A stretch of DNA of 37,871 bases from Boothiomyces macroporosus (lineage: Eukaryota > Chytridiomycota > Chytridiomycetes > Rhizophydiales > Terramycetaceae). This document shows, piece after piece, positions 4,953 through 37,871 of the stretch. The translations under genes and the position numbers were made by a program. The DNA lies in contig JADGKB010000120.1 of NCBI GenBank assembly GCA_027604185.1, forward strand, positions 1 through 37,871, written 5' to 3'. A model generated the notes under the pieces. It ran no database searches, was not told the origin of the DNA, and saw only the letters and a program-made list of their open reading frames with translations. The stretch's first letter is position 1; every line of letters begins with the position of its first letter.

Positions 4953-7900
4953 CTAACAACAACGAGATGATTTATCTGCCTTCTTTGGCGCTGGAGGGTT
5001 TGCAGGCTTGGCATCTGTGGTTGGCATTTGAATTGGTGCAGGCTGTTGGACTGTCACAGCCTTTTCAGGAGCTGTTATCGTAGCCTCTTTTGTAATATCT
5101 GGAACAGTTTCTGTAGACTGTGCTACAGGAGTAGTTTCAGGGGTTACTGGCTGTTCTGGGGCAGGAATAACTTCCTCTGGAACCTCTTCAGTTGGAGAGG
5201 CTACAACATCCACTCCAATCACAGTTCCATCGTCAGATAGTACTGCCTTTTCCAGCTCTTCTTCGGCGGTATCCACCATGCCCATTGTAACTACTTCAGA
5301 ATCCTGTCTTTTTGTCACAACTTCAACCTTGATAAGGTTTTGCATGGTGACATTCTTTGAGAATGTCTGCTTTCTTACAGCTACTTCTCCGGTACTGTCT
5401 TCTGGGGATTTTGCTGGGAGCGCGTCTTTTGTTACAGAAGCTGGAACAAACTCTGCGCTTGGAGGGACATCAGCAGATTTGATCAATGGCTGAGGGGCAA
5501 ATGCACCGTCTGCTTTAGCCCATACGTTTTCTTTTTCCAATGGAATAGTGAAAGCATAAATTTCATCACCAAATAGAATAATCATTCTGGAATCATCCTT
5601 CACATAAGAGTAGATTGAGCTGAAATCAGATGATACTACATGAGGAAGAGAGAAGATTGGTTTCGGAGTGTACTTTTCAAAATCAAACAAGTAAATTCCT
5701 CTAGAAGAATTGTCATAGCGAATACCAGGGCCGCTAAGGATAGGAACTCCATATGTGCTGTGATATTGCTGGACGATATTTCCCGATTCCAAATCCCAAA
5801 TATTAATGTTGCTTTTTTCGCCAAAGCAGAGAAGTTTCTTTCCATCAGCACTAAATGTAACTGAAGTGACTGGGAACCCATTTTCCAATTCCTTTACAAT
5901 ATCAACCTTTTCGTTTGCTTTTCTTACAACAGCATAGCCATTTGATGTTGAAAGTGCAAATAGTTTTTGATCATGACTGAATGTGCCTCCAGTAATAGAT
6001 GAAGAAAGGTTAGGAATAGTGACTCCATTACCGTTAACATCATTCCAATAGATTGAGTTTCCTTGATCGTCGGATATAATGAGTCCTGACCCATCAAAGG
6101 TAATTGCAACATCGGTGATGGCTGATGCGACCCCTTCAAATGTATGGAGCTTTTCACCTTTGGTGCTCCACAAAGTAGCAGTTTTGTCACCATCGTTTGC
6201 TGTAATTACAAAGTTTCCGTCGCCAGAAAGGCAGAAATGACGGGCTTTTCCAGCGGTTTTGTTCTCTACTACTAAAGATCCGTCTTTCCTGAAAATCTTG
6301 AACCCATCTCCAGTGAGACCAACTATCACACTTCCATCATTTGACACCATGACATCATCTGGCTCAAAATTATTGGCCATTTCAGTAACTTGGAGAGTTT
6401 GAGTATCCAAAATCTTTCCGTTTGTGGATAAAATGATTGATCCATTTTCTGCAATGTGTGAATTTTCATCATTTGTTAATTTGTCAATGGCAGCGTAATC
6501 TGTATCTTTGGTGGCTTCCCAAACACCAGAAATTCCAGAGTTGGAACTAGTAATCAGAATCTGGGCCATACTGTTGTTGTCGATATGAGTGATTTGTGAA
6601 GAGTCTAGTCTTGATGTTCTCAAGCATTTGTGGTTTGGATTGTCAGTCCTAAGGGTTGAAATATCCCATATTTTAGATATGTTTGCAGAAGAAGTAGACA
6701 TTATAGTTTTTGAAAGAGATCCCAAAGAGATAGCAATTACAGGCTCTGTATGACCGACCAATTTCATGATCTTGGAAGTGTCAAGCAAGTCTGCCACCAC
6801 CACTAACTTGTCATCACTACATGAAGCTATTAAATCATTGTCAGATATATGGATTTCGTTAATCTTTGCAGAGTGGCTATTAAAAGTAACGGACCATTGT
6901 CCTTCCTTGATGTTCCATCCTTTTACTTGACCATTTTCAAATCCACAGTACACTACTCGGGCAAAGTTGTCGATAGCAACAGTGGTGATTTTGCATTCAA
7001 GATCCTTTGGCAGAGCAATTTCTGCAGTGGGATTAAGAATGTCCCAAATGTACAGTTTACCTCCAGCAACTACGGCTACCTTTCTTCCAATTTCAGCAAA
7101 CGCAACACTTTCAACTGCATCTTCATGTTCCCAGTTGAACAGTTCGGAATTGCTGTTCAAAGCCCAAATTCTAACAGTTTTGTCTTCACTACCAGTAATT
7201 AAAATAGAGCGCAGGTGTGAAATAGCCAAAGTAGTGATTGGAGCAGTGTGACCAACAAATGCAGGAGTGTGTTTTCTTGATAGGGTAAACATGACACCAG
7301 CATTGTTCTTTTCGGTTGCATATGCAACATATTCACATTTTGGAGACACTGCAGCCTTTGTAATCTTTTCTTTTGCGTGGACGGATGCCATCAAGGTTGG
7401 CCACTTGTTGAGGGTCGATAAATGGATTTTGTAACCAGGTTCGATAAATTCAGAAAATCTGGAAGCAATCTTGCTTTCAGTTGGTGCAAACAGCAACAAG
7501 GATCTGTAGAGTTCGTATGGTTTTCCAATCAATAATCTAGAGCCACCATATAAGAAACTTCTAATTTCCTTGCAATAGTCGTAAATGGTATTGAAATCGT
7601 CACTGCTGACACCACTGTTTGTTGTTTCAAAAACACTACGGTTAATCAATATGCCTACTTTGACACTTGTACAACAGCATGTACGATATTGTGGACCTGG
7701 CCAAGCAAAGTCATAACATCTAACCAGTAGAGGACAGTTGCAGGTCTCTTTCCAGTTTTCGTATCAACAGGTGGTTCAAAGAACTGGGCCAACGCATGGG
7801 AAACTTCCATTGTGATTTCTCCAAACATCAAGTGTTCATCCCAATATAAACAGCAGTATCTCAAAATAGGAGAGATTTTCTTCTTTGATTCTGCAATATT

Positions 7901-9785
7901 AGTATTATTCAGAGAATATGGAGTAGTTAGTTCAGACTTCATTGTTTGAATACAGAATTTGGCCAGCTTGGTATGTGTGTTTTTGATCATTGTAGAGTAA
8001 TTTTCGCCAAAATAAGTTGGGAGATAATCCAACAGCATTGGATGGAAGATGGAAATATATCCAGCTTCAGTGATTCTAAAGCAAGAATTCAGCTTTACCA
8101 TAGTTTTTGGTAAATTGGCCAAAACAATTTTGGAGCCACTGTCCTTCATAATCTTGCCCAGCATTTCAACCGTGATTGTTTCTTGAATAACCAATAGAAT
8201 GAAAAAGATCTCTTCCCAAAATTTGGATGTAGCTTTGCAGGTATCCATAGTGTGTTTGAAGAGGCCATCCAAACTACTGTCCCAGTCAAATTCATCACAG
8301 AAATCTAAAAAGTTCTTTTTCACATCCTCTGGAGGATCTTCAGCCTGATCCTTGAATTTTTCAACTATAGTCTTACACAAAAGTCTGCAGTGAATGAACA
8401 AGCCTCCACACTTGGAAGAAACGGTTGAAACCATGGTGCCTTGAAGGCCACCTTCCTCGGTAAATCTAGCCAACTTGTGTTTGATGTAGATCATAATGTC
8501 TTCTTGGCAATGTGATGCGTCATAAATGTGCTTCTCGAAAGATTCTTCTTGGTTGGAAAGGAAATCCTCAACGTGAGGAAGAGAAGTGCGACTGGTGATC
8601 AATAGCTTTACATTTGAGGCAAAGCTGAAGTGAGATTCAAAAAGAGTGAGAATTTCAGGAGTATTGGTAGTGTCCTCTTCATCGAAAAATGATCCAATTG
8701 CATCGATTGCGATTAGAGTAGGGTGGTTGATGGCTGCTAAAGGTTCAACAATTAAATTTGTAAAGGCACTAGCGACATTTTGAGACTTTACTGGGTCGAT
8801 AAAGAACTCTGGATCAATAGCAAGTGCAAAGTCGACATCTTCTCTAGATAGCTGGTATGATAATGAGTAAATAGCAGCTAAAAGATTCTGGTTCATTGCA
8901 TTTGCAACAAAAACTGCGACATTTGGCTTTGATGAATGGGCTTTAAGACTATCAACAGCGTGTACAAATGCTACAGATTTACCGCAACCAGCAGGAGCTT
9001 GAATCCATAACCCGGATTTGCCGCTTTCGAACCAGTCGGTAATTTTTTGAGTCATTCCTGCTAAAGTTCCTTTGACATATTCGGCTCTTAGAGTGTTTTG
9101 TGCGTTTTCATTGGTAATAGGGTCTTTCTTTGTGTATTTGGCTAAAATTTCACTCTTTTTGGTCGCCCCGTTTGTGTTTGCAATAGTATCAATTTGACCT
9201 GTCAAATTGTCTAATTTCTGATTTGCCTGTGCTGTGTTTTGTGCAATTTCAACAGTCAGTTCGTGGTCAAGAGTGCCCCTCCAAGTTTGGAACAACTTTT
9301 GCAAACTTTCGTATTCCGTCAAGACAGTTTTAACTATGAAAAAGTTGTTGCCCTTCTTCTTTTCTTCAAGAAGTGCCCATTTTTCTTGAATTTCTTTTAG
9401 AGAGGCCAAAAACTCGTCAATCACTTTTTTAAGGTGATCAGAAACCTTGTTGGACGTGATACGGCTGCATTCTTCGATCGCATTGTCAAACATTGATTTT
9501 GTACCCACCAACACTTCTTCTGCTTGCTAAAGTTAAAAAGAATGCTACGTTTTTCTCCAAGTAGGAATCGATGGCAGTAGTTCCAATCGATAATACCATC
9601 GCAACACCAGTTCCGAAAGGCGGAGGAATGAATGCTTTGGCGAATTTCTTTCCGAGTGACATACACTGTTTTGTAAGCGCGAGTGCATCTGGCTTTCCTC
9701 CTGTATTGAGTGCATTCGCAACAGAGTCAGATATCCCCAAAATATCTGCTTTGTTTGCTGTCGCAAAAGTCTTTATTTCATTCAT
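4953..9785 (-). CDS. NACHT-WD40 NLR-like protein with C-terminal Cys-Cys
   Basis: Three consecutive ORFs join into one protein of 1595 aa when introns 9527-9548 (22 nt) and 7636-7658 (23 nt) are removed; both show TTAAC before AG and the joined length is an exact multiple of three. Residues 1-79 include a Gly-rich hydrophobic stretch (about 52-71). About 80-200 is helical. The NACHT NTPase follows, with Walker A APAGCGKS at 256-263, Walker B TLIAIDAIGSFFDE near 349 and sensor LITSRT at 388-393. From about 790 a dozen or more WD40 units suggest two propellers. A Pro/Thr/Val/Glu-rich tail ends KSSRCC. The plan matches fungal NLR immune or incompatibility receptors: sensor repeats, NTPase switch and N-terminal effector. 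The N-terminal domain is not recognised. A TATA-like box lies at 9817-9825. Confidence 0.85.
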
Positions 9786-10174: not shown

Positions 10175-11587
10175 CTATGATGAAACTCGGCAATTTCCTT
10201 GCCTCAGTTCAGAAGCATCAAAGAGATTTTCCGAGGCCACATTCTGTGCTGCAAGGCGACCAAACACCACACACTCCAAAAGGGAATTCCCAGCAAGTCT
10301 GTTACCTCCATGTACACCAGCACTAACTTCACCAGCAGCATACAAACCTGTGATAACTCCACCATTATTTGATAAGACTTGAGCCTTTTCATTGATGGCA
10401 ATCCCGCCCATCGTGTAATGTATCGCAGGCGTTACTTTTGCAACCCACAAATCGCCATCAAAGCCCAAATCTTTCAAGTACCCTGGTTCAGAGTGCAAGG
10501 CTAAAACTGCGGTTTTAAAATCCAATCTCTGGATCAACTTTTTGAATTCATAGAACCCAATCGATTTCATTCCATATTTTTCAACCATATCTTTGGTTAA
10601 TACAAGATAGACATATGGGTATTCAAGAGATTCTACTTGATCAACAATTGCTTCAGTGACTTTATCTCTTGTTGTTAATTCATCTACGAATCTTTTCCCG
10701 GTTAAAGGTGAAATAAGTATACCGCCTGCTGCTCTAAGCGCTTCTGGCGCGAGAATTTTGATAGGATTTGTTGTATCATTTGGGTCAACAAATCCCGTAG
10801 GATGTACCTGTACGTGTTCCAGGTCTAAAATTTTAGCGTTTATATTAGAGGCCCAAGATAGTGCATCCCCCGTAGAAGTGCACCCATTGGTGGTTGGCAT
10901 TTGTTTTCCAATTCTTTCATACAGTTTATGTACTTTGCTTAACTGTGTACTTTCTTGGACTCTTTCTCCAAGTATATCTTTAACATTAAACGCATATCCA
11001 CCAGTAGCGAGAATAACTGCTTGTGCTGGTATACTTCCATTGAAATCGGCAGACTCTATTTCAATACCTTTGACTTTATCATTTTCAATCTCGATATTCG
11101 TGCACCTTGTATTGTACAGTACTTTGACGTTCTGGGCACTGTTTAATTTTGCAGATATTCTAGATATCAGCTCATATCCAATATTTCCTTTCGCGTTTAC
11201 TGGCGAGTGTGTACGCGGTTGCGAATGCCCACCACATTGAACTATTTTTGACAAATCAAGCTGGGTTTCCGCTTCAATCCAGTGAAAAGCATCTGTTGAC
11301 TGTTCTACCAGTGTTTCAACTAGTTTTTGCTGGCAGTATCCCCTTCCTGATAAAATTGTGTCATTAAAAAACGCACTTGGACTGTCGAAGATAGAGCATG
11401 TTTCTTGATGCACCGTATTCACACTGTTTATTCCGGATGAAGCTTTCTGAGAGTTGCCTCCAAGCTTTGGCTGTTTTTCCACAATGATTATTGAGAGGGA
11501 AGGGAGTAGGATTGACAGGTACCTAGCTGTGGATAATCCAGCCAACCCTCCACCAACTACAACTACTTGCGATAGCTGACTAAACAT
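10175..11587 (-). CDS. Soluble fumarate reductase (Frd1/Osm1 type)
   Basis: 470 aa, no intron. Members of this family reduce fumarate to succinate with FAD and help reoxidise reduced flavins or NADH when oxygen is low. An FAD Rossmann motif VVVVGGGLAGLSTA lies at 8-21, with ATGGYAFN at about 194-201. Catalytic-region motifs are visible: HPTG 262-265, GKRFVDELTTRD 297-308 with the likely proton-donor Arg, HYTMGGI at 390-396 and HGGNRLAGNSLLE from 426. The fused cytochrome b5 or FMN-binding domains of some homologues are absent. Length matches yeast Frd1 (about 470 aa). There is no clear presequence, so a cytosolic location is likely. The gene is flanked by accessory-type genes and has no visible operon partner. 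Confidence 0.85.
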   Translation of the reverse strand: MFSQLSQVVVVGGGLAGLSTARYLSILLPSLSIIIVEKQPKLGGNSQKASSGINSVNTVHQETCSIFDSPSAFFNDTILSGRGYCQQKLVETLVEQSTDAFHWIEAETQLDLSKIVQCGGHSQPRTHSPVNAKGNIGYELISRISAKLNSAQNVKVLYNTRCTNIEIENDKVKGIEIESADFNGSIPAQAVILATGGYAFNVKDILGERVQESTQLSKVHKLYERIGKQMPTTNGCTSTGDALSWASNINAKILDLEHVQVHPTGFVDPNDTTNPIKILAPEALRAAGGILISPLTGKRFVDELTTRDKVTEAIVDQVESLEYPYVYLVLTKDMVEKYGMKSIGFYEFKKLIQRLDFKTAVLALHSEPGYLKDLGFDGDLWVAKVTPAIHYTMGGIAINEKAQVLSNNGGVITGLYAAGEVSAGVHGGNRLAGNSLLECVVFGRLAAQNVASENLFDASELRQGNCRVSS

Positions 11588-11985: not shown

Positions 11986-13206
11986 ATGTTCTCTGCAATT
12001 CCCGTCGAGCTGGAGATTGTATCTTGCCATTTGACGCTCTACGACTACCACCAACTAAGATTCGCATTTCAAAACGGTCTTCCCACATATCCTAAACTGA
12101 CATTTAATGCGTATAAAGAGTCGACACAGTGGTATGCAGGTTTGCTGCCCCACAAAAGCGACGGTGAAGATCCAGACGAAGAATATGAAATTCGAAACGA
12201 TCTAGATGTATCCGAATATATCTCGCTGACTCCGGAAAGCTTAAATGATTCGGTGTTCTATTTCATCTGTATACATAGTCACGTAAAGCAGTTTAGCAAA
12301 ATCAAACTACATAGGATAGATCAATCTACCATCAAGGAGATGCTACTATTGAAGCCGCACATTCAAATTCTATCGAAACTGATACAGAATATCAACTTTT
12401 CCAAATTAGCACTTCAAGAGCTCTGTCAAATATGGCTACATGCAGCAGAATGTGGATCACTAGAGTCAATAAAACTAATTCTAAAAGATCAAAGAGTGGG
12501 AGCGGACTATCAAGACAATTATGCCTTTAGATGTTGTTTAAAAAAAGGATACTATGATATGGCAAAGTACTTGCTGAATGAAGTACAGATTAATCCAACT
12601 TTTTCTGAAAACTATCCGATTAGAATAGCGTCGCAGAACGGACACTTGAATATTGTTAAACTACTACTACAAGATACGCGTGTCGATCCCTCTGCCTTAC
12701 ATAACCAAGCGCTTCAAATTGCTGCCAAAAATGGATATGCAGAGATTGTGGCTCTGCTGTTGAAACACCCATCTGTAAATCCTAGTCAGTTCCAAAACCA
12801 ATTGATAGTAGCGTCTTGTGCAAGGCAGAATGCCAAAGTAGTTCAAACGCTCATCCTTGACCCTAGAGTAGATCCAACTGCTAGTTCAAATCAAGCGATT
12901 AGAAATTCAGCCTATTGGGGACATGCAGAAGTAGTAAAGTGTCTGATGAAAGATAAACGGGTAGATCCTAGTGCTAGGGATAACTTTGCCCTCTTTTGGG
13001 CTTCAAAGAACGGTCATTTGGAAGTAGTAAAGTTACTACTACGAGATCAAAGGGTCCATAGTGGTATTTTTATGGCACTTCATGAAGCTCGTACCAATGG
13101 ACATATTGAAGTAGCTCAAGTCCTAGACTCTGCAGAAAGAGTTTATAGCCGCAGAATGGGAGTTTTCGAGAATTTAAAGATTGCCCTGTATCAACTGTTC
13201 AAATAA
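11986..13206 (+). CDS. Ankyrin-repeat protein with F-box-like N-terminus
   Basis: 406 aa from the ATG at 11986, which lies in a good CCACCATG context; the frame is open upstream only through a non-ATG codon. The N-terminus (FSAIPVELEIVSCHLTLYDYHQLRF) resembles a degenerate F-box. From about residue 140 there are seven or eight ankyrin repeats of 33-34 residues of the form GHLEVVKLLLRDQRVDPSARDNF. These DPS-type ankyrins are an expanded family in chytrid-grade fungi. No intron. The stop TAA lies inside an AATAAA (13202-13207). The target is unknown; an adaptor role in ubiquitin ligation is only a guess. It is a different repeat class from the gene at 479-1525. Confidence 0.8.
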   Translation: MFSAIPVELEIVSCHLTLYDYHQLRFAFQNGLPTYPKLTFNAYKESTQWYAGLLPHKSDGEDPDEEYEIRNDLDVSEYISLTPESLNDSVFYFICIHSHVKQFSKIKLHRIDQSTIKEMLLLKPHIQILSKLIQNINFSKLALQELCQIWLHAAECGSLESIKLILKDQRVGADYQDNYAFRCCLKKGYYDMAKYLLNEVQINPTFSENYPIRIASQNGHLNIVKLLLQDTRVDPSALHNQALQIAAKNGYAEIVALLLKHPSVNPSQFQNQLIVASCARQNAKVVQTLILDPRVDPTASSNQAIRNSAYWGHAEVVKCLMKDKRVDPSARDNFALFWASKNGHLEVVKLLLRDQRVHSGIFMALHEARTNGHIEVAQVLDSAERVYSRRMGVFENLKIALYQLFK

Positions 13207-14273: not shown

Positions 14274-15552
14274 TTATTTTTTGCCAGATGCAATACGCCC
14301 TTCCATAATGGTCAACACTCGTTCAAAAACCACAATCCCCTTTTTGATTTCTTCTTCAGTCATGATCAATGGCGGCACCAATCTGATGGTATTATTACCG
14401 GCTGATACCACCAAAACTCCTCGTTCCAAACATAAATCAACAAACATGGATGTTGGGACGTTTTCACGGAGTGTAAATCCAACCATCAATCCTTTTCCTC
14501 TAACAGATTGGATCAATGGAGACACTTTGGCCAAATTAGCACATTCTTGATATAGGAATTCCCCAATTTTTGACACGTTGGAAAGGAAATTAGGGTCAGA
14601 TATCCTTTTCCAGACATGCTGACCAACTCTAGTGGCCAATGGAGATCCACCAAATGTGGTACCGTGATCCCCAGGAGAAATAGTCTTTGCGACTCTATTT
14701 CCCACTACGACCGCTCCCAGTGGTAATCCATTCGCCATAGGTTTAGCCATGGTTAATAAATCAGGCTCGACATTGTAATTCTGGAATCCGAATAGCTTAC
14801 CGGTTCTACCCATTCCACACTACCATTAATTAAACAAACCTGAATCTCATCAAAGATAAGCAAAGCTCCAGTCTCATCGCATCTTTCCCTAAGAGCAGTC
14901 ATGAATTCATCAGTGGCAATATTGATCCCGCCTTCTCCTTGAATAGGCTCAACAATCACTGCACACACATCTTTATCTATCTCACTCAGTGAATCTACGT
15001 TATTGAAATCCAAAGTGTAAAATCCTTGCATCAACGGGAAAAATGGTGTCTGATACTTTTTGTTTGGAGTGGCAGATAACGCTGCCAGTGTTCTTCCATG
15101 GAACGCATTCTTGAATGATACAATTTTAAATCTGGTTGGCTCGTTTGGATACACTGTACGCGCATACTTTCTAGCGAATTTGAAGGCGCCTGGATTAATT
15201 AACGAATACCTTCATTCGCTTCGGTCCCAGAATTACAGAAAAATACTTGCGAGTCATTCAAACTAGTTCCTTGCAAACTATCAACCATCATTTCCGCCAA
15301 TCCTTCGGCATATTCGTTGTGGTAAAGATTTGACAAATGAATCAGTTTCTTTGCTTGATCATGAATAATTTCTGCAATTTGCAAATCACCATGGCCCAGA
15401 GCGTTAACTGCGATTCCCGCCGTGAAATCCAGGAATTTCTTTTCGTTTTTATCAACAAGATAGCACCCTTGCCCATGCGTAAATACATTTGCAGGTCTTC
15501 CGTAGAGCGGTAGTAGCTTTGTGGAATATTTCCTTACTGTTCGCTTGAGCAT
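14274..15552 (-). CDS. ARG8: Acetylornithine aminotransferase, mitochondrial
   Basis: 412 aa from the ATG at 15552; ATGs at 15570 and 15591 are alternatives. Introns are 15190-15209 and 14820-14839, both 20 nt with TTAAT before AG. The enzyme makes N-acetylornithine from N-acetylglutamate semialdehyde with PLP in arginine synthesis. The N-terminus MLKRTVRKYSTKLL is a plausible mitochondrial presequence. Visible class-III aminotransferase blocks are FLDFTAGIAVNALGHG, FFCNSGTEANEG, FHGRTLAALSAT, the Asp of LIFDEIQ, TMAKPMANGLPLGA with the PLP lysine, and GTTFGGSPLA. The second intron falls directly after DEIQ, before CGMGRTG. Acetylornithine rather than ornithine specificity is inferred. It shares a short promoter with ERV41, and its stop lies inside AATAAA (14278-14273). 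Confidence 0.9.
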
Positions 15553-15646: not shown

Positions 15647-16736
15647 ATGTACAAACGGAAATCGTTCTTGGTTGGATTCGACGCCTTTCCAAAGATTGAT
15701 AAAGAATTAACAAAATCAACAGAGTCAGGAGGCTTGGTGTCAATTATTATACTTGCAGTTCTTACCTTTCTCTTGTGGTAATTCGTAATAACGCAGCTCT
15801 GAAGTTTACAGGTGGAGGAGTCTCCAATACAATTACGAATTTCTTGTTGATCAATCTCGTCAATTGCTATTAGATGTGAATTTGGATGTAACTGTGGCTA
15901 TGGAATGCAAATGTAATTCAGCGTTAATCAAGATTTAAGAATTGATATTCTGGATGTAGCCCAAACTGCTTTGGCCGTTGGACGTCAGGTAAAGATGACG
16001 CCGGTTTCGTACAACGATCTTGGAACAACGGATTTATCACACCAACTTGATTCCCACAATGTTAACAGAGTTGGATCCCCACACAGACCTGCTAAAGATA
16101 CATGGAGAAACCCTCACCAATCATCTAGCGGTAAATTGATATTTATATTAGGTCCACTGAATGGGTGTCGTTTTCAGGGCTCATTTTCAATTGCAAAGGT
16201 GGAAGGAATGTTCCACATCACAGCTCTGGGCCATGGTTATATGGGTGCACATACGCCTCATGAAGGTAACTGTCATTAATCGTAGCAATGAACTTTACAC
16301 ATCGTGTAGATAAGCTATCTTTCGGAAGACACTATCCTGGTTTAGTCAATCCATTAGATCATACTCACTTATCCGCAGCTACTAACTTTGATAATTTTCA
16401 ATACTATTTAGGAATTGTGCCAACTATATACGTAGATAAGACAGTGACATTCTTTGGGGGTGTACTAGTAACCAATCAGTATGCCGTAACAGAGTTCTCC
16501 CATATAGTAGATCCAAATAAGCCGGATGCACTGCCTGGAATATTCATCAAATATAATCTAGAGCCAATATCAGTGAGAGTGACGCAACAGCATACTGGGC
16601 TGATACAGTTTATCACTAGAACTTGCGGAATCATTGGGGGTAATTAGATTTAATCATAGGGGTGTTTGTTTGCGCTGGGGTTGTACTTCGATTGTACCAT
16701 CGCATCGTTGGATTTATATCTCGTGTCAATAAATGA
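15647..16736 (+). CDS. ERV41: ER-Golgi vesicle protein ERV41 / ERGIC2
   Basis: 329 aa after removing five introns: 15778-15796 (19 nt), 15913-15932 (20), 16131-16151 (21), 16266-16285 (20) and 16640-16659 (20). The 16131 intron is in frame without a stop; I call it because it has GT-AG form and its removal leaves the GPLNGC motif aligned. ERV41 with ERV46 forms a COPII-vesicle receptor cycling between ER and Golgi. The order is FDAFPKIDKE, a first membrane segment (VSIIILAVLTFLL), a luminal domain with NGCRFQGS and FHITALGHGY, FTHRVDKLSFG, LPGIFIKYNLEPI, then a second membrane segment starting CGIIGGVFVCAGVV. AATAAA (16728-16733) encodes the last two residues just before the TGA. Confidence 0.9.
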
Positions 16737-17702: not shown

Positions 17703-18344
17703 ATGAATACTTATGATGAAGACCAGGAAGAGTTATCACCATGCGAAAATTTCAATCTAATTACTCCCGGAGTCTATCGATCAGCATTTCCAAAGAAAAA
17801 GAACTTTTCATTCCTAAAGAAACTGAAACTGAAATCAATTCTTACGCTGATACTGGAAGATTACCCGGATCAAAACAAAGTGTTTTTAAAGGAGAATAAT
17901 ATCAAGTTATTTCAATTTGGAGTTGCGGGGAACAAGGAACCGTTTGTAGATATTCCAGAGGATAAAATCAGCAAGGCGCTAACAGTCATTTTAGGTACCT
18001 TATCCTAATGTAGATGTTCGCAACCATCCAATACTCATACACTGTAACAAGGGAAAGGTATCCGTTACTAATATCAGCACCGCACCGGATGCTTAGTGGG
18101 ATGCCTTAGAAAAGTACAGCATTGGAGCTATGTATCGATATTTGAAGAATATAGAATGTTTTCACACCCAAAATCTAGATCAATGGACCAGCAGTTTATT
18201 GAGCTATTCGATACTACCCAAGTACGCGCCAATCCGACATACTTACCAGACTGGATGGAAATTGAAAACGATGTGTTTCTACCAGCCAGAGATGAAGATA
18301 TCAAGGAGCACATTATAATTGATTCTAATGAAAACGACGAATAA
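17703..18344 (+). CDS. Siw14/Oca1-type dual-specificity (inositol pyrophosphate) phosphatase
   Basis: 200 aa after removing introns 17995-18013 (19 nt) and 18058-18077 (20 nt), both with CTAAT. The family signature is strong: ENFNLITPGVYRSAFPKKKNFSFL, GVAGNKEPFVDIPE, then the active-site loop HCNKGKHRTG with Cys108 and Arg114, followed by PKSRSMDQQFIELFD. The loop is split by the second intron between K112 and H113. Yeast Siw14 hydrolyses the 5-beta phosphate of inositol pyrophosphates; Oca1 relatives act in oxidant-induced arrest. The intact CX5R loop argues for an active enzyme. The stop lies inside AATAAA (18340-18345), and IFT80 starts 27 nt further on. Confidence 0.88.
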
Positions 18345-23220: not shown

Positions 23221-24355
23221 ATGTGGCAAGTGCAATTTTTACAAATGCTCGCTGGTGAACCGAAATCTGAACTTCACCAACGAAACAAGAGAAAGGAAAT
23301 CACGGAGGATGAAGACTATCTTGAAAACGAGGCGGAGATTGCCGAAGCAAAACCGCCTCAAAAGGACAGCCCGGCAAAGATCTGGAGCTACACTCCATTC
23401 CGACAAGCTGCATTCTTGGCCCATCTTTTCTTTGCTCCAAAGTTCTTTGTACACAGAGTGACCGGGCTGATCTACTTGTTGCAATACGCTGCCGCTTTCG
23501 CATTGTATTTCTATGATTATGACATGTTCCGTGCATCCCCTCTGGTATGGTCGCTCCCTCTCACTGGAGTAATTCAAAGCATCACTGCAATCTATACTTT
23601 TACATTCTTGCCAAAGAAGACCAAAGATCCAGGATATTTCTCAGACAAATACACCATGAACTATCCGTTTATTGTTGAAAACTCGTTCTTTGCTCTCATC
23701 TTACTCTGGCAATGGGTGTACTATGACGACTTTTTTTACGAAATGTTCAAGGAGACTGTTGTGTTTGAATGGGCATTTGTGTTTTTCCCATATGTTATGC
23801 GTCAAGCTTGGCCACAAACTAGATTCCGCGACAGTTTGGAAAGCACCAACGGAAAGACCCAAAAGAACCGATTCTTTTACCAAATAGCAATTATGGTTAC
23901 AAAGGCTTTCTACATTTGGGCAAAGCATTACATTGGTAAAACAAGTCTGATATCTAGGCTATTTCCTCAACTACGCGAGATATTTGAATCGAATTTCTCC
24001 TGAACAAACCAAGCACATCTACTTGATGGAAATTTCCAGTGCGTTCGCCACAACTATTGCAGTATTCTTGCATACTTTGAAATTTAGAAAGATGATTGGC
24101 CCTCGCCTCTCATTCTTCATCTACGCTTTCGCTTACTTGTCTACATTCTATTCCTACTACTTTATTTTTGACGTTTTCCCAAAGAACCTTGATTTGACTT
24201 TACTTTGTTTGGGTGGAGTAGCTATCAATTTTGCTTCAAGGAAATGGCACGTACTTTACCAGGTTATGGTCTTTTCTATTATAGTATCATCGCGATACAA
24301 TATTGCTCCAGAAGCATTAAAGGGCTTTTTACCTTTGCCAGTTGGAAACCAATAA
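23221..24355 (+). CDS. Multi-pass membrane protein of unknown family
   Basis: 370 aa from 23221 after removing intron 23936-23957 (22 nt, CTGAT before AG); the Met at 23245 is an alternative start. I do not recognise the family. The first 60 residues are charged and hydrophilic (KRKEITEDEDYLENEAEIAEA), then about eight hydrophobic segments follow, including VTGLIYLLQYAAAFALYFY, FIVENSFFALILLWQWVYY, TVVFEWAFVFFPYVMRQAW and LTLLCLGGVAINFASRK. Aromatic residues are abundant. The joined reading HYIGYFLNYARYLNRISPEQ supports the splice. It lies 48 nt after the CFAP99-like gene on the same strand, so a link to flagellar or zoospore membranes is possible but unproven. AATAAA (24351-24356) overlaps the stop. 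Confidence 0.75.
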
Positions 24356-24779: not shown

Positions 24780-27700
24780 TTAATCAGATTCAGTGTCAGG
24801 TTCTTTTTCACCTCCTTCAGACAGCCATTTCAAATGGCGCGCGCGACGACGTACTTCCCTTGCTTTCATTTCGTTTCTGCTCAACTTTTTCTTCTTTCCA
24901 GATGATTTACTGACTGCTTTTGCAATTTTTTCAGTAGAATCTTCAAAGTTATCTTCAGCAACGGCAACGTGGCCTTTCTTTGTAAGTCTACCAGCTTCTA
25001 CATGCCATAATTCTGGACATAAAGCTTCAACAAATTCAGTATTATGAGAAATCATAATAACCGCTCCTCCCCATTCTCTAATGGCAACAGCTAGACCACC
25101 AAGAGCCTCTCTATCTAGATAGTTGGTTGGCTCATCGAGCACCAACATGTGAGGGTTATTCCACATTGCTGCAGCCAAGACAACTTTGACTTTTTGACCG
25201 CCAGATAAACCAGAAATAGGGTTATTGTCTGCAATATCACCAGGAAGACCAACTTCCTCAATGTGCTGTCTGATGACGGATGGTACGAGTTCTCTGTATC
25301 CTTGGCCTTCTCTGGATGCCTCAGCATCGTCGAATGCTTGTACCAATTTGTGGAAGCCCCATTCCAAAAGTTGCTCTCTGGCAATCCATTTGTTAAATCT
25401 GTGCGGAAGACCAACCCACTTTACTTCATATTGGAAAGATTTCTTCAACTTTTGTCTACCCAACAGTAGTTCAACCTTTAGTTTTTGGCCCATAAATTCA
25501 ACAACTGTCTCCATTTGTGCAATGTCTTCGTCGGTTAGCTTACGCGTAGCCTTTTCCAAGACTTCGCGATCTTGACCTCCCTGGTATCTCCATTGAATGT
25601 ATTGGTTAGGAGTCTTTTCTAAATGTTGCTCCAAATGATGGAAAGCGTGTTGAGCAACATAGCCAATTCTGATATTTGGATGCTTCCAGACTGTTCCTTC
25701 TTGAGGAATCAATTCCCCAGTCAACAATTTGATCATGGTAGATTTACCAGCACCGTTTGCTCCAACTACACCAACCCTGGATGACAAGGATAACTGAACT
25801 GAAACATCGTACATGGATGGCTTTGGAGCTCCAGGGTATGTGTATGTAGCATTCGACATTTTTAAAATTGCTTTGGTGTTACTTCTAATACCCAAAAGTA
25901 CAGAAGGAGGTGGGAAACTGAATTTAACCGAGGTAGCAGCCAGTGTATAGTAAGACTTTGCTTCTGGTCTACGTTCAACGAATCTATTTTTAGTTACAAT
26001 ATTACTTGGACAGGTTGCCCTTGTAGTATACCAATTTTTTCTTTTCATAATGAACAATATAAGTGCAGACATCGTCCAAGAACCCAGAATCGTGGGAAAC
26101 AATCAAAGAGGTAATTTCCGGGTGAGTAACCAAGTATTTTACCAACCAAGCAACATTTTCAACATCCAAGTGGTTAGTTGGTTCATCCAAAAGCAAGATA
26201 TCAGCCTTGAGTAGCATTGCTCTTGCTAGTTCAAGCTTCATTTTCCATCCACCGGAAAGCGCGCCAACAGGCTGAGCTTGTCTGTCCTCATTGAATCCTA
26301 CTTCAAACAGTGCGGCTTTAACATCGTCCTTTGAGAGCTGGGTTAGTCCAGGATCTGCAGCCAAAAAGTCTACTACAGAGAGATTTCCTTCTTCACCTTG
26401 GAGATTGTGTTCAACAAAAGCAGTTCGAAGAATATCTTGCGATGGGAACCCATCAACCTTTCCTTTGGAAATGGCTCTCATAAGAGTAGACTTTCCTGCA
26501 CCATTGTGGCCACAGAGCCCGTATCTTTGACCTTTGCGCAATATAAGACGAGTGTTATTGAGTAACATCATACCACCGTAAGCTAAACTAAATTCACAGT
26601 CGCAAAGTAAAGCCCCTTCGCTATCGTCACCTTCATCACCAACTTTTTGTGATTCCTGCAATTAATTTAATATTACTCTATAAAGGGCGTGGTAGTGCTT
26701 CAACAAATACGAGGCAAGGGACTTGGCCTCAGGCTCTAGAATAGCTGAAGACAAGTATGGTACAATTGCTTCATTCCAAACTTGTTCCTTGAATATTTCT
26801 CTTTTGATCAATTCAGAGCAAACTCCAGCAACATAATCAACAGATGGCTGAAAGAATGAGACCAAGAATATTGTTGATTTTTTAAAGAACTTTTGCATTT
26901 CCTGGTATAATTCTTCTGCTGAAACTACGAATTTATCGGACTTGCAATCTTCACCACCGGCAGCAGTGACCAAAGTTCGTCTAGCAGCAGTGGCCAAAGC
27001 TCTAATTTCTGGAATGGCTGCGGTTTCAATAATCCTGTCTAGTCCAGGGAGTAATTGAGGCATAAACTGACCAGCATCGGGTGGATTTCGAACCAGTTTG
27101 AACAAGTTGTCAGCAATAACCACAGTTGGACGAACAACGGCTGCAGAACGGTCATTTAGCGCTCTGACAAGCAGTGGAACCATAAGTGCCAAGGCAGGAC
27201 CAGTAACTTCTGCGACAAAAGTAGTTGCAGATATGGTTTGAACAGTTTTAGTGACATGATCAGGATGAGCCATGCAGTCGACCAACAATTTGGTGTGCGG
27301 TTCAATATCTGGGTTTCCAACTACCTTGCACAATTTGGTCATAACATCTATTGCTTGTTTGCTAACCTTTCATTAGTTATAATTACCTCTTGTTTAGTAT
27401 CGTGCATGCAGTTAGTAACTACTGGAATGATTTCTGGAAGACAATCTCCAATTTGCTCTGGAGCTTTAATTGCAAGCTCATTCAAGAATTCAAGCGCAGC
27501 AATTTTGCTTTGCCATTTTCCAGTTGTTCCGTCTAATAAATAAGGTAAGGCAATGTGAGTGGCATTGATGTCTACTGCAGCCATAATGTTTGTAACAGCA
27601 AGGTGTGCGGCTTCTCTTACAGGCAATCCTTTGTCTGATTCCAAGTCCAAAATCGTAGGAATACATGGTAATAAATAAGGGACAGCAGGACCTCCAACAA

Positions 27701-27944
27701 TTTTAGCAATTCCAGCAATTCCTAAAAGCCCGCTTTCTCTTTCAGTTCCAGACTTTTTATTAGTAGCGTATTCCATCAGTCTATCAATAATTTGGTCTGT
27801 ATTTAAAACCAGCAATCCTTTTTCCTTGACAAAATTTCCCAATTCGTCAGAAACAGCTAAGCAGTCTCCGGAGCTTTCACTAGTGATCAATTGGTTTAGC
27901 AGCGCATCGGTTGTTATTGGTTCACCCATTTTAGTTGGAGACAT
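24780..27944 (-). CDS. TEF3: Translation elongation factor 3 (ABC-F ATPase)
   Basis: 1033 aa after removing introns 27367-27386 (20 nt), 26656-26676 (21) and 25984-26005 (22); yeast eEF3 is 1044 aa. EF3 binds fungal ribosomes and uses ATP to release deacylated tRNA from the E site. Order: N-terminal HEAT repeats (about 1-320) and four-helix linker; ABC1 with GHNGAGKS 465-472, LSGGWK 549-554 and LLLDEPTNHLD 570-580; ABC2 with GANGAGKS 707-714, an inserted chromodomain-like segment about 814-861 (FQYEVKWVGLPHRFNKWI), SGGQKVK 893-899 and LVLDEPTNYLD 913-923; then a basic C-tail (SGKKKKLSRNEMKARE). All ATPase motifs are intact. EF3 is typical of fungi, though related proteins occur in some algae and protists. 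Confidence 0.96.
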
Positions 27945-28475: not shown

Positions 28476-29801
28476 ATGGAAAAGAAACAAATCAAATTAA
28501 TAACGATGATGTGCCTTTCGTCCCTATTTTTTCTTGCAGAATTGATAGGCGGTTACTCTTCTGGCTCTATATCGCTTATTGCGGACTCGTTTCACATGCT
28601 TTCAGATGTTGCCGCTCTATTTATTGCGTTCTATGCGTCCAAGGTAATATTAACTAACAAGCAGTTGGCAAAATCCAAAGACGTGGGACCAGAATATTCA
28701 TATGGATTAAAGAGGGCTGAAGTAGTGGGGGCTTTAATCAACGGTGTATCTTTGTTGGCTCTGTCTTTTACTCTGATTATTGAAGCAATACAGAGATACT
28801 TTAATCCAGAACGTAAATAATCGCTCACGATAGATATCCAGAATCCTTGGGCCGTGTTGTATGTTGCAGCCGCGGGTTTATGTATGAATATTGTGGGGAT
28901 GTTTCTATTCCACGGACATGGACATGGGCACTCTCATTCCCATGCTCACGACGCCCATGAACAAGTTACTCCTCTAGTTCCAAACGAGAACGTAATTATA
29001 GAAATGCAAGAAGCTGGCGAAAACCCAATACAGCTTCGCGAAAATGTAATTAGAGTTGCCCAATTACTACACGAAAGAGAAACTAGTCAATCTGACATTT
29101 CGAGAGGTGTAGAAGATAGACACGCTCGGGGAACAACCAGTGATTCGTTAAGCAGAAAAAGTGATAAATGTTCGCAGGATCTCAAGCACGAAGATGAGCA
29201 TATTCATGAAGATCAGACTGAAGTAAATCAGGGCCATAATCACTCCGAAGATGGACATTCTCACCGTGGACATTCGCACGACCATGGTCATGGCCACTCT
29301 CATGATATGAATATGCACGGTGTGTTTCTACATATTCTTGGAGACATGCTGACCTCTTTAGGTGTAATTGCAGCTGTTTTAATCATCATTTTTGTGGACC
29401 ATCCATGGACTATTTATGTGGATCCAACAATGTCATTGCTAATTACATTTGTAATTATCAATTCTACAATACCGCTAGTTAGATCAGCGTGCTATATTTT
29501 GGTTCAAGGGACACCTCACACGGTTTCAATTGACGCTTTACGCAGAGATATATTGACTGTGGACGGAGTCGTAAGCATTCATGAACTTCATGTTTGGCAA
29601 CTATCAGACACACAAACTATAGCTTCTGTTCACGTTGTGGTACCTAGACCTGATGAAACATCACCTAGCACGATATTAATGGAAGAACGTTACATGCTTT
29701 TAGCTGCTACAATCAAAAGCAAACTGCACCATCATGGTATCCACTCAACCACTGTACAACCGGAATTTCAATACTCGAGTGAAACAGTATTTGATTTTTA
29801 A
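28476..29801 (+). CDS. Cation diffusion facilitator zinc transporter (Zrc1/ZnT-like)
   Basis: 434 aa after removing intron 28813-28833 (21 nt; CTCAC near its end). It moves Zn2+ out of the cytosol by proton exchange, probably into the vacuole or another organelle. Six membrane segments are expected. TM2 carries the metal site ADSFHMLSDV (His40, Asp44) and TM5 carries FLHILGDMLTSLGV (His279, Asp283). The HxxxD pair in both helices is the zinc-type arrangement. Between TM4 and TM5 is a long loop with two His clusters, HGHGHGHSHSHAHD and HGHGHSHD, typical of zinc-sensing loops. The cytosolic C-terminal domain has SIHELHVWQLSD. The splice joins FNPE to HIQNPW, as in the family. Confidence 0.93.
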
Positions 29802-30513
29802 CATAGACTACTTGCATGCTTAGGTGTACAACAAAAGATTGTGAAGAAAAGACATGCTGTCCTCCTAATTAATATAATATTCAACGTAAAACTACGGTTT
29901 ACGCATATCATAAAGGTGGCTAAAGAGTATAGAATGTCTTTAGAAGTATGTGGTATGCAAAAGCAATTGGAACGAGATGAAAAGAGTCCGGTTTTATAGC
30001 TAGTGACCTTTCCCTTGTTGGACATTACTAGATTGTTCTTTTTTTTACATTTCTTTTATTGCTGAGGTGTCATGTTGGTCGCTCATCATTGGGACCAACA
30101 TTCAAAATTAATCTGTGGGAAGCCATTCTGATTTGCAAGTAAAAGGATACCAATCACATTTCAAAGCTTCGGATACTCTTATTGAATGATATGCTTGTTT
30201 GGGGTTCTTGATCAATGACGTTGACAGTCTGGGACATTGCGATTAATTAGGCTTTAATTGGGCTTGGGTGGCAGAAATATTCACAATGCAAAAGTGCAAA
30301 AGAAAACATTTTAGCTTAATGGTGAAATTTCACACGTTACTAGCGGCGTTGATGAAGCTTCGTTTGGTGCTGACTCCCATCAATTTTCTTTTTTATCATC
30401 TCTTTCTCTGATATTTCGGGTCACGACCTGTTTCACTGTCAATAGTACCCACACTTACAAGCCCAAAGATCAGCAAATATAAAAGCACGTAGATTGATAC
30501 CATCATTATCAAA
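29802..30513 (+). promoter_or_regulatory. Long intergenic region with TATA box for the secreted Lys-rich protein
   Basis: TATAAAA at 30478-30484 lies 30-36 nt before the ATG at 30514. The rest of the 712 bp shows no convincing ORF, tRNA or repeat. It is long for this window, which suggests a regulated promoter. Confidence 0.5.
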
Positions 30514-31329: not shown

Positions 31330-31412
31330 TTATGTATTTAATAAAAAGATTGCTCATATAATATCCTTCGGAATAACCGGCCGAGAAAGTTTGCTCTTGA
31401 ATCTCATACAAA

Positions 31413-31880
31413 ATGGAACATGAGCATGCCATTAAACAAATAGAACAAGCCTTGGAAAATATAGGAGGATTTGCAAAGCTGGTTGGAGGACTTCAAGTAG
31501 TTAGAATAGAAGAGGAAAGCAAAAAAGTTCACTTTACTTTTGTAGTGGAAGAAAAGCACACCAATACCTTTGGTTTCTTGCATGGTGGAGTTATTGCTTA
31601 CTTGATTGACGTCTGCGGTACCATGCTGATAATTTAGGATCACTAGCGATTACAATTCATGGATCAGCGTTAGGGGTTTCAACGGATATTTCAGTCTCAT
31701 ATCTCAAAGGAACCAGAGTCGGACAAACCGTAAAGTAAGCACAGCTAATGTAGTATTGAAGCAGAAGCTCCAAAAGTCGGGGGTTCTTTGGCATTTTCAA
31801 CAGTTAGACTTTGGGTTGATGGCGAAGTTATCGCTTACGGAAATCACACTAAATTTGTCGCGCAGAAATCTAAATTGTAA
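31413..31880 (+). CDS. Hotdog-fold acyl-CoA thioesterase (ACOT13-like)
   Basis: 142 aa after removing introns 31618-31637 (20 nt) and 31735-31753 (19 nt); human ACOT13 is 140 aa. The family hydrolyses medium- and long-chain acyl-CoA, often at mitochondria. The order fits a single hotdog domain: FAKLVGGLQVVRIEEE, FTFVVEEKHTNTFGFLHGGVIAYLIDVCG with the conserved HGG and catalytic-type Asp, then TIHGSALGVSTDISVSYLKGTRVGQTV, EAEAPKVGGSLAFSTVRLW and DGEVIAYGNHTKFV. Both introns interrupt essential strands, so the unspliced message would be truncated. AATAAA (31879-31884) overlaps the stop. Confidence 0.9.
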
Positions 31881-32702
31881 TAAATTACTATTGAAAGCTT
31901 CACTATGGCTCAGTTGAAACTACCAATGACTAGTCCGCCTTCCCTGTTTCATTTTCACAGGATCGCTAAAAGTGATTGGTTCGATTGGCGTGTAATGAAA
32001 GCATTAAATTCATCATTCCGAGTAATAATTGTCATTGCTCAACTTTGACCCTCCCATCCTTTCCCACTTGACTCAAGACAGGGGCATTGCATAGACAATG
32101 TTAGGCAAAATTCAAGCTAACCTCCTGTAAAACAATGGTGGGATTTTATCGTTGGCAATCTTTGAGCAATCGCTCAGTATTATTTACGGTGAGAGTTAGG
32201 ATTAAATTTTCTAAACTACCATTTGTAACTTGGTCACCAACATGTACTGATAGTTAAATTATTTAACCAGTCAGGTTGATAAATTCTGGAAATGAGGCTT
32301 CACTTTATCCGCCAAGCCCAAAGGTAATGCTGACTCATCATTTGCACACATAGTTGAAAATGAAACCATTAGTTTCCGAAGCTATTGAGATTAAATTTAT
32401 AGATCTGGCTTGAACAGGCGCACCATCCGAAATTTAATTTTGGTTGGTGAAACTCGTCAAAGGAATGGAAAAGGCAGGTGAATCATCCACACCCATGTGT
32501 ACACAGACTACGGAATTGCGAAAGCGATCTGGAAGTAGGCTAATGATAACAGCACAAGAGGCGATAACAAAGCCCCAATGTTCACAAAAGTCCGATGTGT
32601 GGCTACCTTGAGAAACTTTTAAAACTTGCAGTTTCAAAAAGTCAAACCAAGTGGCTTAACCCGACTTAAAGGCTGAGAAAGATTTAACAAATTTAAAACC
32701 AA
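31881..32702. other. Intergenic region without recognisable gene
   Basis: 822 bp of AT-rich sequence. One minus-strand ORF (32434-32637) has no recognisable domain. I tried tiny-intron joining here and found nothing convincing. It probably holds the promoter of the Ser-rich protein gene. Confidence 0.4.
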
Positions 32703-34927: not shown

Positions 34928-35009
34928 GTGAATGACAATTTCAAACAATAGAAAACTAGAAATCAAAATTACTTAAAAACTGCAGGTGTGATTATATTAC
35001 ACTTCTAAA

Positions 35010-36497: not shown

Positions 36498-37871
36498 ATG
36501 AAAAACTGGTCTCGTCAGTACAATATTAAAACTCCGATCTCATATGTCCACGAAGAAGATGATATCCCAAAGGCCATTAAATCAGCGATAAAAAATGGAA
36601 CGAGGGTTAGAGCGATGGGATCTTTGTACAACTTTGCCAACGTTGTGGAACCAATGAAGTCTGGGAAGGTTTTCGCGAAAGATCATTTATTGTCTCTAGA
36701 GCATTTTAATCAAGTTATTTCGTACGATGAAGAAACAGGGTATATTACCTGTCAAGCTGGTATGAAGCTAAAAGATCTAAACGCGCAATTGGAGCTGTAC
36801 GGAAGATTGTTACCAAATTATGGTAATGTAGACGGGCAAAAGCTTGGCGGATTGATATCTACCGGAACACATGGTAGATCTCTCAATCAAGGAAGCTTTT
36901 CTAGTATCATAAAATCAGTCCGATTTTACGATGGCTTGGGGAACAAAAGAACTCTAGATTTTGAAGCTACAGATCCAGAAAGTGTAGAGCTATGCGATGC
37001 CGTTGGATTGTCTGTTGGGATGCTCGGAATCATATCCGTCATTACTTTTAAAACTGTACCATTGTACTATCTCCGTATGATCAATTCACCACAGCAATTG
37101 GACTGGGTAATTGAAAATTGGCAAGAACTGAATGAAAAATCTGACTATGTGGAAATCTCCTATTTCCCTATACTTGACATGTGCATTGTTGGCCGAAGTG
37201 AAAAGCTTATTTTGGCAGAACACGAAAACGCACATTTGGACGCACCAGGACCATACAAAAGAAACTCTGAACGACCTCATTATCTCAAAGTTATGTTGGA
37301 AGCGATCGTCGGGTTGTGGTATGTCTCGACCTTCTTCTTTAAATTCAAGCTTTTCCGAAGCATGTACCATAAAGTGTATCAAAACGCACTCAACACTGCG
37401 CAGGCTGAAGAGTACATCTCAATGGTAAGCTGTCTGTAACCGTAGGCTGACGACGTGATTATTGAAAACGACAGCTTGGAGCTCAGACACATTGAAATGG
37501 ACATCTGCTTTGACTTTGAGCAAGGGCCAGAGTTCTTGAAGCGCATGCGACAGTACTTTAAAGAAAACCCTAAGCGGACTGTCAACCCAGTGGTGGACAT
37601 TCGGTGTTCGAAGGAAGAGCGCTTCCTTCTCTCTGGAGCACACAAGCGCCGAGCGTTCTGGGCAGACTTTCTGTGCATCAGATACGGATCCAAAAAGAAC
37701 TCTTCGTACCACCAGGAGATCCACAACCTGTTCAAGGACATGAAATTCAAGCGGCACTGGGGCAAGCACTCGTGTATGACGCCAGAAGAAGTGCAAGAAA
37801 TCTACGGCGAGAATCTCGAAAAGTTCTTGGCCATCAAGCAAGAACTGGATCCTAAAGGAACATTCAAGAAC
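36498..37871 (+). CDS. Sugar-1,4-lactone oxidase (D-arabinono/L-gulono-lactone oxidase family), 3' end missing
   Basis: The ATG at 36498 opens a frame running to the window edge after removal of intron 37425-37445 (21 nt, GTAAC then CGTAG). About 450 residues are present, and the visible end (HWGKH, then LDPKGTFKN) is close to the family C-terminus. These enzymes oxidise aldonolactones to erythro- or L-ascorbate, using FAD and O2. The FAD_binding_4 domain is seen as NYGNVDGQKLGGLISTGTHG and LSVGMLGIISVITFK; the ALO domain follows. In the G-S-G-H-S segment, where many relatives attach FAD to His, this protein reads GSLYNF, so covalent flavinylation at that site is unlikely. The last exon is visibly richer in G+C than the first. 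Confidence 0.85.

Follow-up and report, generated by a model that had tools for sequence, protein, structure and literature searches.

Genes in the 37,871-nucleotide (nt) stretch of DNA analysed here (the window; contig JADGKB010000120.1, C120 of the Boothiomyces macroporosus assembly GCA_027604185.1, which holds 15,203,306 bases in 216 contigs) are interrupted by segments of about 20 nt, close to the smallest introns known. We conclude with high confidence that these segments are genuine U2-type spliceosomal introns, nearly all of 19–23 nt, that occur genome-wide, would be removed by a major spliceosome with canonical U1, U2 and U6 pairing sequences and follow a length rule made of two spacings. 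The evidence comprises the sequence architecture of the segments, their spread over the genome, the restoration of homologous proteins upon their removal, and the small nuclear RNA (snRNA) sequences of the same genome.

The introns of the window were re-derived from the sequence before being compared with an earlier note on the same DNA. After review, 39 introns in 11 genes were retained (10, 15, 6, 6 and 2 of 19, 20, 21, 22 and 23 nt, respectively), comprising 37 with GT-AG ends, one with GC-AG ends (18980–18999) and one with GT-TG ends (21740–21759); 33 of the 39 carry TAAC or TAAT followed by 3–6 nt to the exon. The earlier note had placed 38 introns in 12 genes, with 10, 15, 5, 6 and 2 of the five lengths and TAAC/TAAT near the exon in 32. 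Compared by counts, its intron number is nearly matched and its branch-motif frequency agrees; introns were placed in one gene fewer, and one more 21-mer is present. The outer boundaries it had given, 7636 and 37445, coincide with the first and last introns re-derived. All ten complete genes became stop-free upon intron removal, while their unspliced forms contain 2–45 frame-1 stops each; the eleventh gene (from 36498) exits the window and was left out of this check. Removal restores frame and protein length as had been claimed, yielding products of 1595, 772 and 1033 amino acids (aa) for the genes called NACHT, IFT80 and EF3.

Lengths of the introns

Intron lengths were examined using a home-made dynamic-programming gene finder whose coding model was first trained on 93 long open frames. 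In a first run, which was given only GT and AG as splice signals and treated all lengths from 12 to 200 nt as equally likely (flat prior), 36 of 64 introns fell at 19–22 nt. Thirty-four of these 36 start with GTA and 23 have TAA(C/T) 1–6 nt before the end, a feature found in 448 of 5925 (7.6%) background GT..AG pairs of the same lengths; among the 28 introns of other lengths, 10 start with GTA and 8 have TAA(C/T) before the end. When a motif was learned unsupervised from the model's own output under the same flat prior, 210 of 387 introns were of 19–23 nt and the rest were scattered. The figure rose to 362 of 390 introns, in 130 genes and 238 kb, once the length prior was learned as well, GC donors were admitted and introns shorter than 17 nt were barred. 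A held-out set consisted of 16 of 21 small loci (L013, L037, L039, L040 and L041, which overlap or repeat others, being omitted), with motif and coding models carried over from the main set; here 66 of 102 introns fell at 19–22 nt under the flat prior and 89 of 99 under the learned one. In a decoy control with flat prior and no motif, the GT-AG boundary pair gave 88 of 153 introns at 19–22 nt, whereas seven decoy pairs gave 7/124, 4/126, 2/118, 10/112, 6/111, 5/112 and 4/114.

The same lengths stand out when splice signals are counted directly. Pairs of the form GTA(A/G/T)...TAA(C/T)...first AG were tallied by spacing, with expectations from first-order Markov resampled sequence. The window contains 11, 16, 5 and 7 pairs at spacings of 19, 20, 21 and 22 nt, where 2.2–3.2 are expected each (39 in total vs ~10). 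In a 200-kb sample from 20 further contigs of the assembly, the corresponding counts are 73, 83, 55 and 29, with 16–20 expected each (240 vs ~73). Spacings outside 19–22 nt show only milder, broad excesses, for example 125 vs 81 expected at 12–18 nt and 1206 vs 1067 at 62–120 nt in the unmasked window and loci. Masking the predicted 18–25 nt introns left 104 vs 77 at 12–18 nt and 110 vs 90 at 19–23 nt, and no excess at 62–120 nt (991 vs 1009; 488 vs 495 and 503 vs 514 in its parts). Since masking removes most of the excess elsewhere, most of it came from splice signals of tiny introns falling into pairs with unrelated signals; no other length class of similar size was seen in the window and loci after masking. 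The spacing peak in the window and 20 contigs, together with the failure of the decoys, bears out the earlier note's statement that introns of 19–23 nt occur throughout the genome. Its alternative that most introns exceed 40 nt was examined and is not the case.

An unlikely alternative is that a sizeable minority of introns is longer, ~40–200 nt, and was missed or under-counted, the 20-nt class being merely the most visible. When the model could place introns as long as 200 nt, 18 of the 390 it placed exceeded 30 nt; a 46-nt candidate lies in the Isy1 gene (L038 1225–2104), twin segments described below total 40–41 nt, and 33 of the 102 held-out introns fell outside 18–25 nt under the flat prior. 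A residual 9% excess at 36–61 nt after masking (477 vs 436) also speaks for it. Against this, lengths outside the peak are scattered, IFT80 needs no longer intron and a 373-aa piece of topoisomerase II needs only a twin. Forbidding introns of more than 30 nt changed the total model score from 11247 to 11263 over the 238 kb; as the ban did not lower the score, longer introns have no net support there. The remark in the earlier note that no longer intron was needed was therefore nearly right, its exceptions being the 18 model introns above 30 nt, the Isy1 candidate and the twins.

Lengths below 19 nt are rare, with two 18-mers and one 17-mer among the 390. The 17-nt minimum excludes 14 model introns of 13–15 nt and one of 16 nt from an earlier run; at a minimum of 12 nt, 18 of 387 introns were below 19 nt, ten of them 15-mers. 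That 15-nt class (23 of 402) was rejected as self-reinforcing in self-training, removal of 15 nt keeping the frame. Also rejected were a 17-nt intron in Sec15, where the frame is explained by a GT-TG 20-nt intron just upstream, and a 30-nt intron in Yju2, which is coding by comparison with human YJU2. At L017 6292–9104 the modelled gene could be built only with many odd introns and is perhaps no real gene.

Intron architecture and the spliceosome

Architecture was analysed in 450 introns of 19–23 nt with GT/GC-AG ends, lying off locus edges, from the window, 20 loci and 16 splicing-gene loci. Retention of the intron would shift the frame in 342, shift the frame or add a stop in 419, and do neither in 31. 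The donor consensus, given as the commonest letters, is AAG/GTAATT, with G at +5 in only 17%. TAA(C/T) occurs 1–6 nt before the end in 289 of the 451 introns of the final set, and a looser T(A/G)A(A/C/T) lies 4–7 nt from the end in 359 of 450. Branch statistics used only motifs in this 4–7 nt range, and the pattern itself fixes some letters. The distance from the first G to the presumed branch A is 14 nt in 170 introns, 15 in 146, 16 in 34 and 17 in 9, so that the A stands at nt 14 or 15 in 316 of 359; it is followed by 5 nt in 173, 6 in 147, 4 in 22 and 7 in 17. Were the two spacings independent, 91, 142, 85, 25 and 5 introns would be expected at 19–23 nt, and 10 at 18 nt; 103, 149, 76, 25 and 6 were observed, 18-mers having been filtered out. 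The branch site lies so near the 3' site that a polypyrimidine tract has almost no room between them; T is instead common on the upstream side of the branch. Each kb of coding sequence holds 2.22 introns on average, which extrapolates to ~25,000 introns genome-wide.

Removal of the segments restores homologues. Residues 1–770 of the spliced 772-aa IFT80 align with the solved IFT80 structure 8bd7, and restored products likewise align through the junctions for topoisomerase II (9bq8), a THYN1-like protein (3eop) and Sec15 (proteins of relatives). From this architecture we infer that the segments are actually spliced and that the A at nt 14 or 15 is the branch nucleotide.

The same genome encodes the matching machinery. 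The U1 snRNA begins with the canonical pairing sequence AUACUUACCUG, scoring 68.8 bits against an Rfam cut-off of 69.5; the U2 snRNA contains the canonical GUGUAGUAUCUGUUCUU, including the branch-pairing GUAGUA; and the U6 snRNA contains the canonical pairing sequence ACAGAGAAGAUUAGCAUGGC. Family searches of the assembly matched Prp8, SF1, Yju2, Cwc25 and Isy1, while U2AF65 reached 230.7 bits, below its cut-off of 310.3, in a search that was intron-blind (exon by exon). Among the homologues that the earlier note had singled out for examination, U2, U6, SF1 and Prp8 were matched and U2AF65 fell under the cut-off; its spliceosomal reading is supported by the U2-type behaviour of the introns, their branch motif and the snRNAs. 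In Cwc25 the glycine plug is present as MGGGDLNLKKSWHP; with the protein taken to start there, its alignment to human Cwc25 runs from residue 1. The N-terminus of Yju2 is conserved by comparison with human YJU2. Isy1 (at L038 1225–2104) aligns only from residue 37 (human 24), human residues 1–23 being unaligned; no conclusion is drawn on its N-terminus because the 5' gene structure and start, with two introns around a 1-nt exon, are doubtful. Two U2 snRNA genes that differ in sequence were seen on different contigs (L002 and L003). Cwc25 was found twice with identical scores on two contigs (L036/C49 and L037/C100), which suggests uncollapsed haplotypes or a duplication.

These features are consistent with a mechanism in which each intron would be recognised as a unit (intron definition) by the major spliceosome, with canonical U1, U2 and U6 pairing in very tight sequence. 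Length would be set by two near-independent spacings, 14–15 nt to the branch A and 5–6 nt after it, which add up to 19, 20 or 21 nt; some introns have 22 or 23 nt. The limits may arise because the lariat loop cannot be smaller than ~14 nt and the 3' site has to be reached over a short, fixed distance.

Relatives and rival explanations

Homology places the host in the Terramycetaceae (Rhizophydiales), close to Boothiomyces JEL0838. Both Boothiomyces and Terramyces belong to this family. Among the matches listed, chytrids such as Entophlyctis helioformis, Globomyces and Batrachochytrium rank best of the named relatives for IFT80; Sec15 (L032) is, over aligned columns, 97% identical to Boothiomyces sp. 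JEL0838, 93% to Terramyces JEL0728 and 92% to Boothiomyces JEL0866; and the 1033-aa ABCF ATPase is identical to a Terramyces protein at 973 of 1033 positions. Rhizophydiales are a flagellated group, and the IFT80 gene agrees with the flagellated fungus supposed in the earlier note. One IFT80 match, P0001 (775 aa in a 2,498-nt contig, source 'lgn', 73% identical), may be a cDNA of a relative.

We then asked of published proteins whether the edges of internal gaps of at least 3 aa lie within 1.34 residues of intron sites, aligning 9 of the 120 listed IFT80 matches and 9 of the 62 Sec15 matches. For IFT80, Globomyces JEL0801 had 3 of 8 edges at such sites (0.22 expected from random sites), Gorgonomyces 0 of 2 and Spizellomyces 0 of 2, and the other six aligned without such a gap. 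For Sec15, with 14 sites (including one, 704.67, that was afterwards considered an error), the counts were 6 of 10 for Boothiomyces JEL0838 (0.46 expected), 3 of 8 for Terramyces, 2 of 4 for Boothiomyces JEL0866, 3 of 12 for Globomyces JEL0801, and 0 of 2 each for Globomyces pollinis-pini and Gorgonomyces; Kappamyces (proteins truncated), Batrachochytrium and Entophlyctis had no such gaps. In addition, the JEL0838 Sec15 protein contains the nine residues MYPILILAF, an exact read-through of the 20-nt Sec15 intron 9. These breaks and the translated intron indicate that at least some of these introns exist in the relatives and mislead annotation there.

Several points weigh against the reading of the segments as tiny introns of near-uniform size. 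They are known here from genomic DNA only. The gene model was home-made and produced false introns, since removed, and the decoy test used its final, fixed coding model, whose training genes had already had tiny introns taken out. The flat-prior runs scatter many introns at other lengths (28 of 64 and 177 of 387), and unmasked spacings of 36–61 nt are in broad excess (590 vs 478 expected), an excess that masking reduces to the residue given above and not to zero. U5 and RED were not found in the assembly by searches that also matched no control genome. Several relatives show no breaks at the sites, and the EF3-type protein of Terramyces has its full 1033 aa; should the introns be shared, this means that some public models already handle them.

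It is very unlikely that a separate specialised spliceosome, minor U12-type or derived, removes the segments. U12-type introns have RTATCCTT donors and U11/U12 snRNAs. The segments have the donor consensus GTAATT, GT-AG ends and the branch motif YTAAY; of the snRNAs searched for (U1, U2, U5 and U6), U1, U2 and U6 keep their pairing regions, and conservation extends to the glycine plug of Cwc25 and the N-terminus of Yju2. In favour of such a machine are the size of the segments, below what human and yeast spliceosomes are known to use, and the unaligned human residues 1–23 of Isy1. The latter recalls Stentor, whose Isy1 N-terminus and Cwc25 glycine plug depart from the pattern of other eukaryotes (PMC9505925).

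Highly improbable, too, is that ribosomes pass over the segments in an mRNA that still contains them, by translational bypassing or frameshifting, or that the segments are cut from the DNA before it is transcribed, like the internal eliminated sequences (IES) of ciliates. Ciliate IES are TA-bounded DNA elements excised from the genome; all 39 window introns end GT/GC-AG or GT-TG, 37 of them GT-AG, and the branch motif is placed for pairing with a U2 that is present along with the other matching snRNAs. Resemblance in size to bypassed or eliminated elements, and the genomic origin of the data, are what favours this view. Assembly or sequencing errors that break frames are hardly credible, as ends, branch motif and narrow length are common to 21 separate contigs, which is not expected of random errors, and in some relatives the gene models are interrupted at matching positions.

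Individual introns and comparison with other systems

In the window, a gene presumed, in line with the earlier note, to encode a NACHT/WD40 protein (4953–9785, minus strand; 1595 aa spliced, 41 frame-1 stops unspliced) has introns of 23 nt (7636–7658) and 22 nt (9527–9548), both supported by gene model and stop check. The class-III aminotransferase gene (14274–15552, minus; 412 aa, 24 stops) has two 20-nt introns, 14820–14839 and 15190–15209, supported by gene model, Pfam scan and stop check. The ERGIC/COPII vesicle protein gene (15647–16736, plus; 329 aa, 23 stops) has five: 15778–15796 (19 nt; gene model, Pfam scan, stop check) and, by gene model and stop check, 15913–15932 (20 nt), 16131–16151 (21 nt), 16266–16285 (20 nt) and 16640–16659 (20 nt). 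Gene model, Pfam scan and stop check agree on 17995–18013 (19 nt) and 18058–18077 (20 nt) in the tyrosine phosphatase gene (17703–18344, plus; 200 aa, 3 stops).

The IFT80 gene (18372–20853, plus; 45 stops unspliced) has eight introns. Five are supported by gene model, 8bd7 alignment and stop check, namely 18409–18427 (19 nt), the GC-AG intron at 18980–18999 (20 nt), 19228–19249 (22 nt), 20149–20168 (20 nt) and 20434–20453 (20 nt); the others, 18671–18689 (19 nt), 19794–19814 (21 nt) and 20627–20648 (22 nt), are sites given by the gene model at which the public model of Globomyces JEL0801 breaks. In the adjacent coiled-coil gene (20960–23172, plus; 670 aa, 39 stops), gene model and stop check support 21137–21159 (23 nt), 21235–21253 (19 nt), 21324–21343 (20 nt), 21641–21659 (19 nt), 21938–21956 (19 nt), 22477–22498 (22 nt), 22693–22712 (20 nt) and 23005–23023 (19 nt). 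The candidate GT-TG intron 21740–21759 (20 nt) was placed by frame, without homology, and 21850–21868 (19 nt) was placed by eye and passed the stop check; these two replaced model proposals of 69 nt (at 21751) and 22 nt (21821–21842).

A gene that looks like one for a membrane protein (23245–24355, plus; 362 aa, 4 stops) has a 22-nt intron, 23936–23957 (gene model, stop check). The EF3/New1-type ABCF ATPase gene (24780–27944, minus; 1033 aa, 22 stops) was labelled EF3 in the earlier note; compared with solved structures, it scores higher against yeast New1 than against EF3A (968 vs 789 bits). Its introns are 25984–26005 (22 nt; gene model, homology, stop check), 26656–26676 (21 nt) and 27367–27386 (20 nt), the last two by gene model and stop check. 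The cation efflux gene of zinc transporter type (28476–29872, plus; 444 aa, 2 stops) contains 28813–28833 (21 nt; gene model, Pfam scan, stop check), 29787–29806 (20 nt; gene model, stop check) and a weaker case, 28644–28664 (21 nt; gene model, Pfam scan, stop check), which is frame-preserving and stopless. In the thioesterase gene (31413–31880, plus; 142 aa, 5 stops), 31618–31637 (20 nt) and 31735–31753 (19 nt) are supported by gene model, Pfam scan and stop check. The gene from 36498, presumably FAD-binding oxidase-like, has the 21-nt intron 37425–37445 (plus) by the gene model. The Pfam scan matched five of seven window proteins to a family, and gave no match for the coiled-coil protein (660 aa as scanned) or the 362-aa protein. 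Three model introns were discarded: 31783–31803, which is coding in the thioesterase family, and 10175–10197 and 31877–31896, whose ends are non-canonical. At 479–1519 and 11986–13206 lie what we take to be ankyrin-like repeat proteins.

Odd ends were surveyed by allowing one-letter variants of either end at equal cost in introns of 18–25 nt. Of 485 introns, 453 were GT-AG, 7 GC-AG (including 18980–18999 in the window, L032 8927–8946 and L009 2936–2957) and 6 GT-TG, with 1–3 in each of the other twelve classes. Three candidate GT-TG introns have a TAAT branch and a 5–6 nt tail: 21740–21759 in the window, L032 6932–6951 (minus) and L026 7878–7898 (minus). Joining across the second, in Sec15, gives EYDVLFLDSACKKLQD, as in Terramyces, and across the third, in the THYN1-like gene, the alignment crosses the junction without a gap; the window case restores the frame only, and at least two of the remaining three look poor. 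A few introns may end in TG. Abutting pairs with a zero-length exon between them account for 3 of 345 internal exons: in topoisomerase II (L014), in Sec15 (L032, sites at aa 105) and in L034 (7737–8530, minus). The topoisomerase II twin (21 + 19 nt) leaves an alignment to human TOP2B gap-free at the junction. About one exon per length is expected among 345 anyway by our estimate, and no enrichment is claimed.

Among the systems compared here, Encephalitozoon cuniculi is a fungal relative, and the Bigelowiella natans nucleomorph is the relict nucleus of an endosymbiont, in contrast to the fungal nucleus studied here. In Stentor coeruleus, introns are likewise genome-wide and of near-constant length, with canonical U1/U2 pairing and 5 nt after the branch A; they differ in being 15–16 nt long, with the branch A at nt 10–11 and no strong branch consensus, in occurring in 18% of genes (here 2.2 introns per kb of coding sequence) and in a Cwc25 without the glycine plug, which is present here (PMC9505925). 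The B. natans nucleomorph introns, 18–19 nt and relatively dense, are near the same length (PMC12316389, PMC2483917), whereas their 5' sites are described as largely GT(A) and without a branch-point signature (PMC2483917), TAAY being strong here. Paramecium tetraurelia also has only ultrashort introns at relatively high density, but of ~25 nt and described without a branch-point signature (PMC5014332, PMC2483917). E. cuniculi shares the TAAY branch motif; in contrast, the 13 introns studied average 35.8 nt in an intron-poor parasite (PMC2483917). Compact filamentous fungi, among them Peltaster and Pneumocystis, show genome compaction with shortened introns, yet their medians of 45–50 nt are more than twice the length here (PMC7181583).

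A 2008 comparison described intron-rich genomes with the shortest introns as having weak splice signals and no branch signature (PMC2483917). The strong branch site at a near-fixed position here, with TAAY at its fixed place in 23 of the 36 motif-free introns against the 7.6% background, provides a counter-example to that generalisation. Other lineages with ultrashort introns are known; what looks new is the retention of a strong branch site in an intron-rich fungus. Among the papers listed in searches of the open-licence literature, none dealt, by title or start of abstract, with chytrid introns of ~20 nt; subscription papers and preprints lay mostly outside that search, and a report may exist there.

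For chytrid genomics, the breaks described above mean that some published gene sets are damaged, with protein parts missing and one intron translated. In Rhizophydium megarrhizum, a 15.3-Mb assembly with many contigs similar to Globomycetaceae, completeness is 76.9% at the genome level and 40.5% at the protein level (AUGUSTUS), which its authors put down to fragmented models (PMC13391722). Tiny introns may be the cause, though this is a guess. Whether ultrashort introns are common to several Rhizophydiales families, with a ruler-like spliceosome that picks the 3' site by distance and exons down to zero length, we regard as an even question. If so, Terramycetaceae and Globomycetaceae, and perhaps others, would carry the trait, partly hidden by gene finders that stretch models or read through; a 3' site picked by distance would let TG replace AG, and twins lying end to end would be possible because each 20-nt unit would be recognised alone. 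Few lineages are known to have such small introns, and no intron-rich fungus is among them in the open-licence literature consulted. Their presence alongside a largely canonical spliceosome asks how close the 5' site, the branch site and the 3' site can lie.

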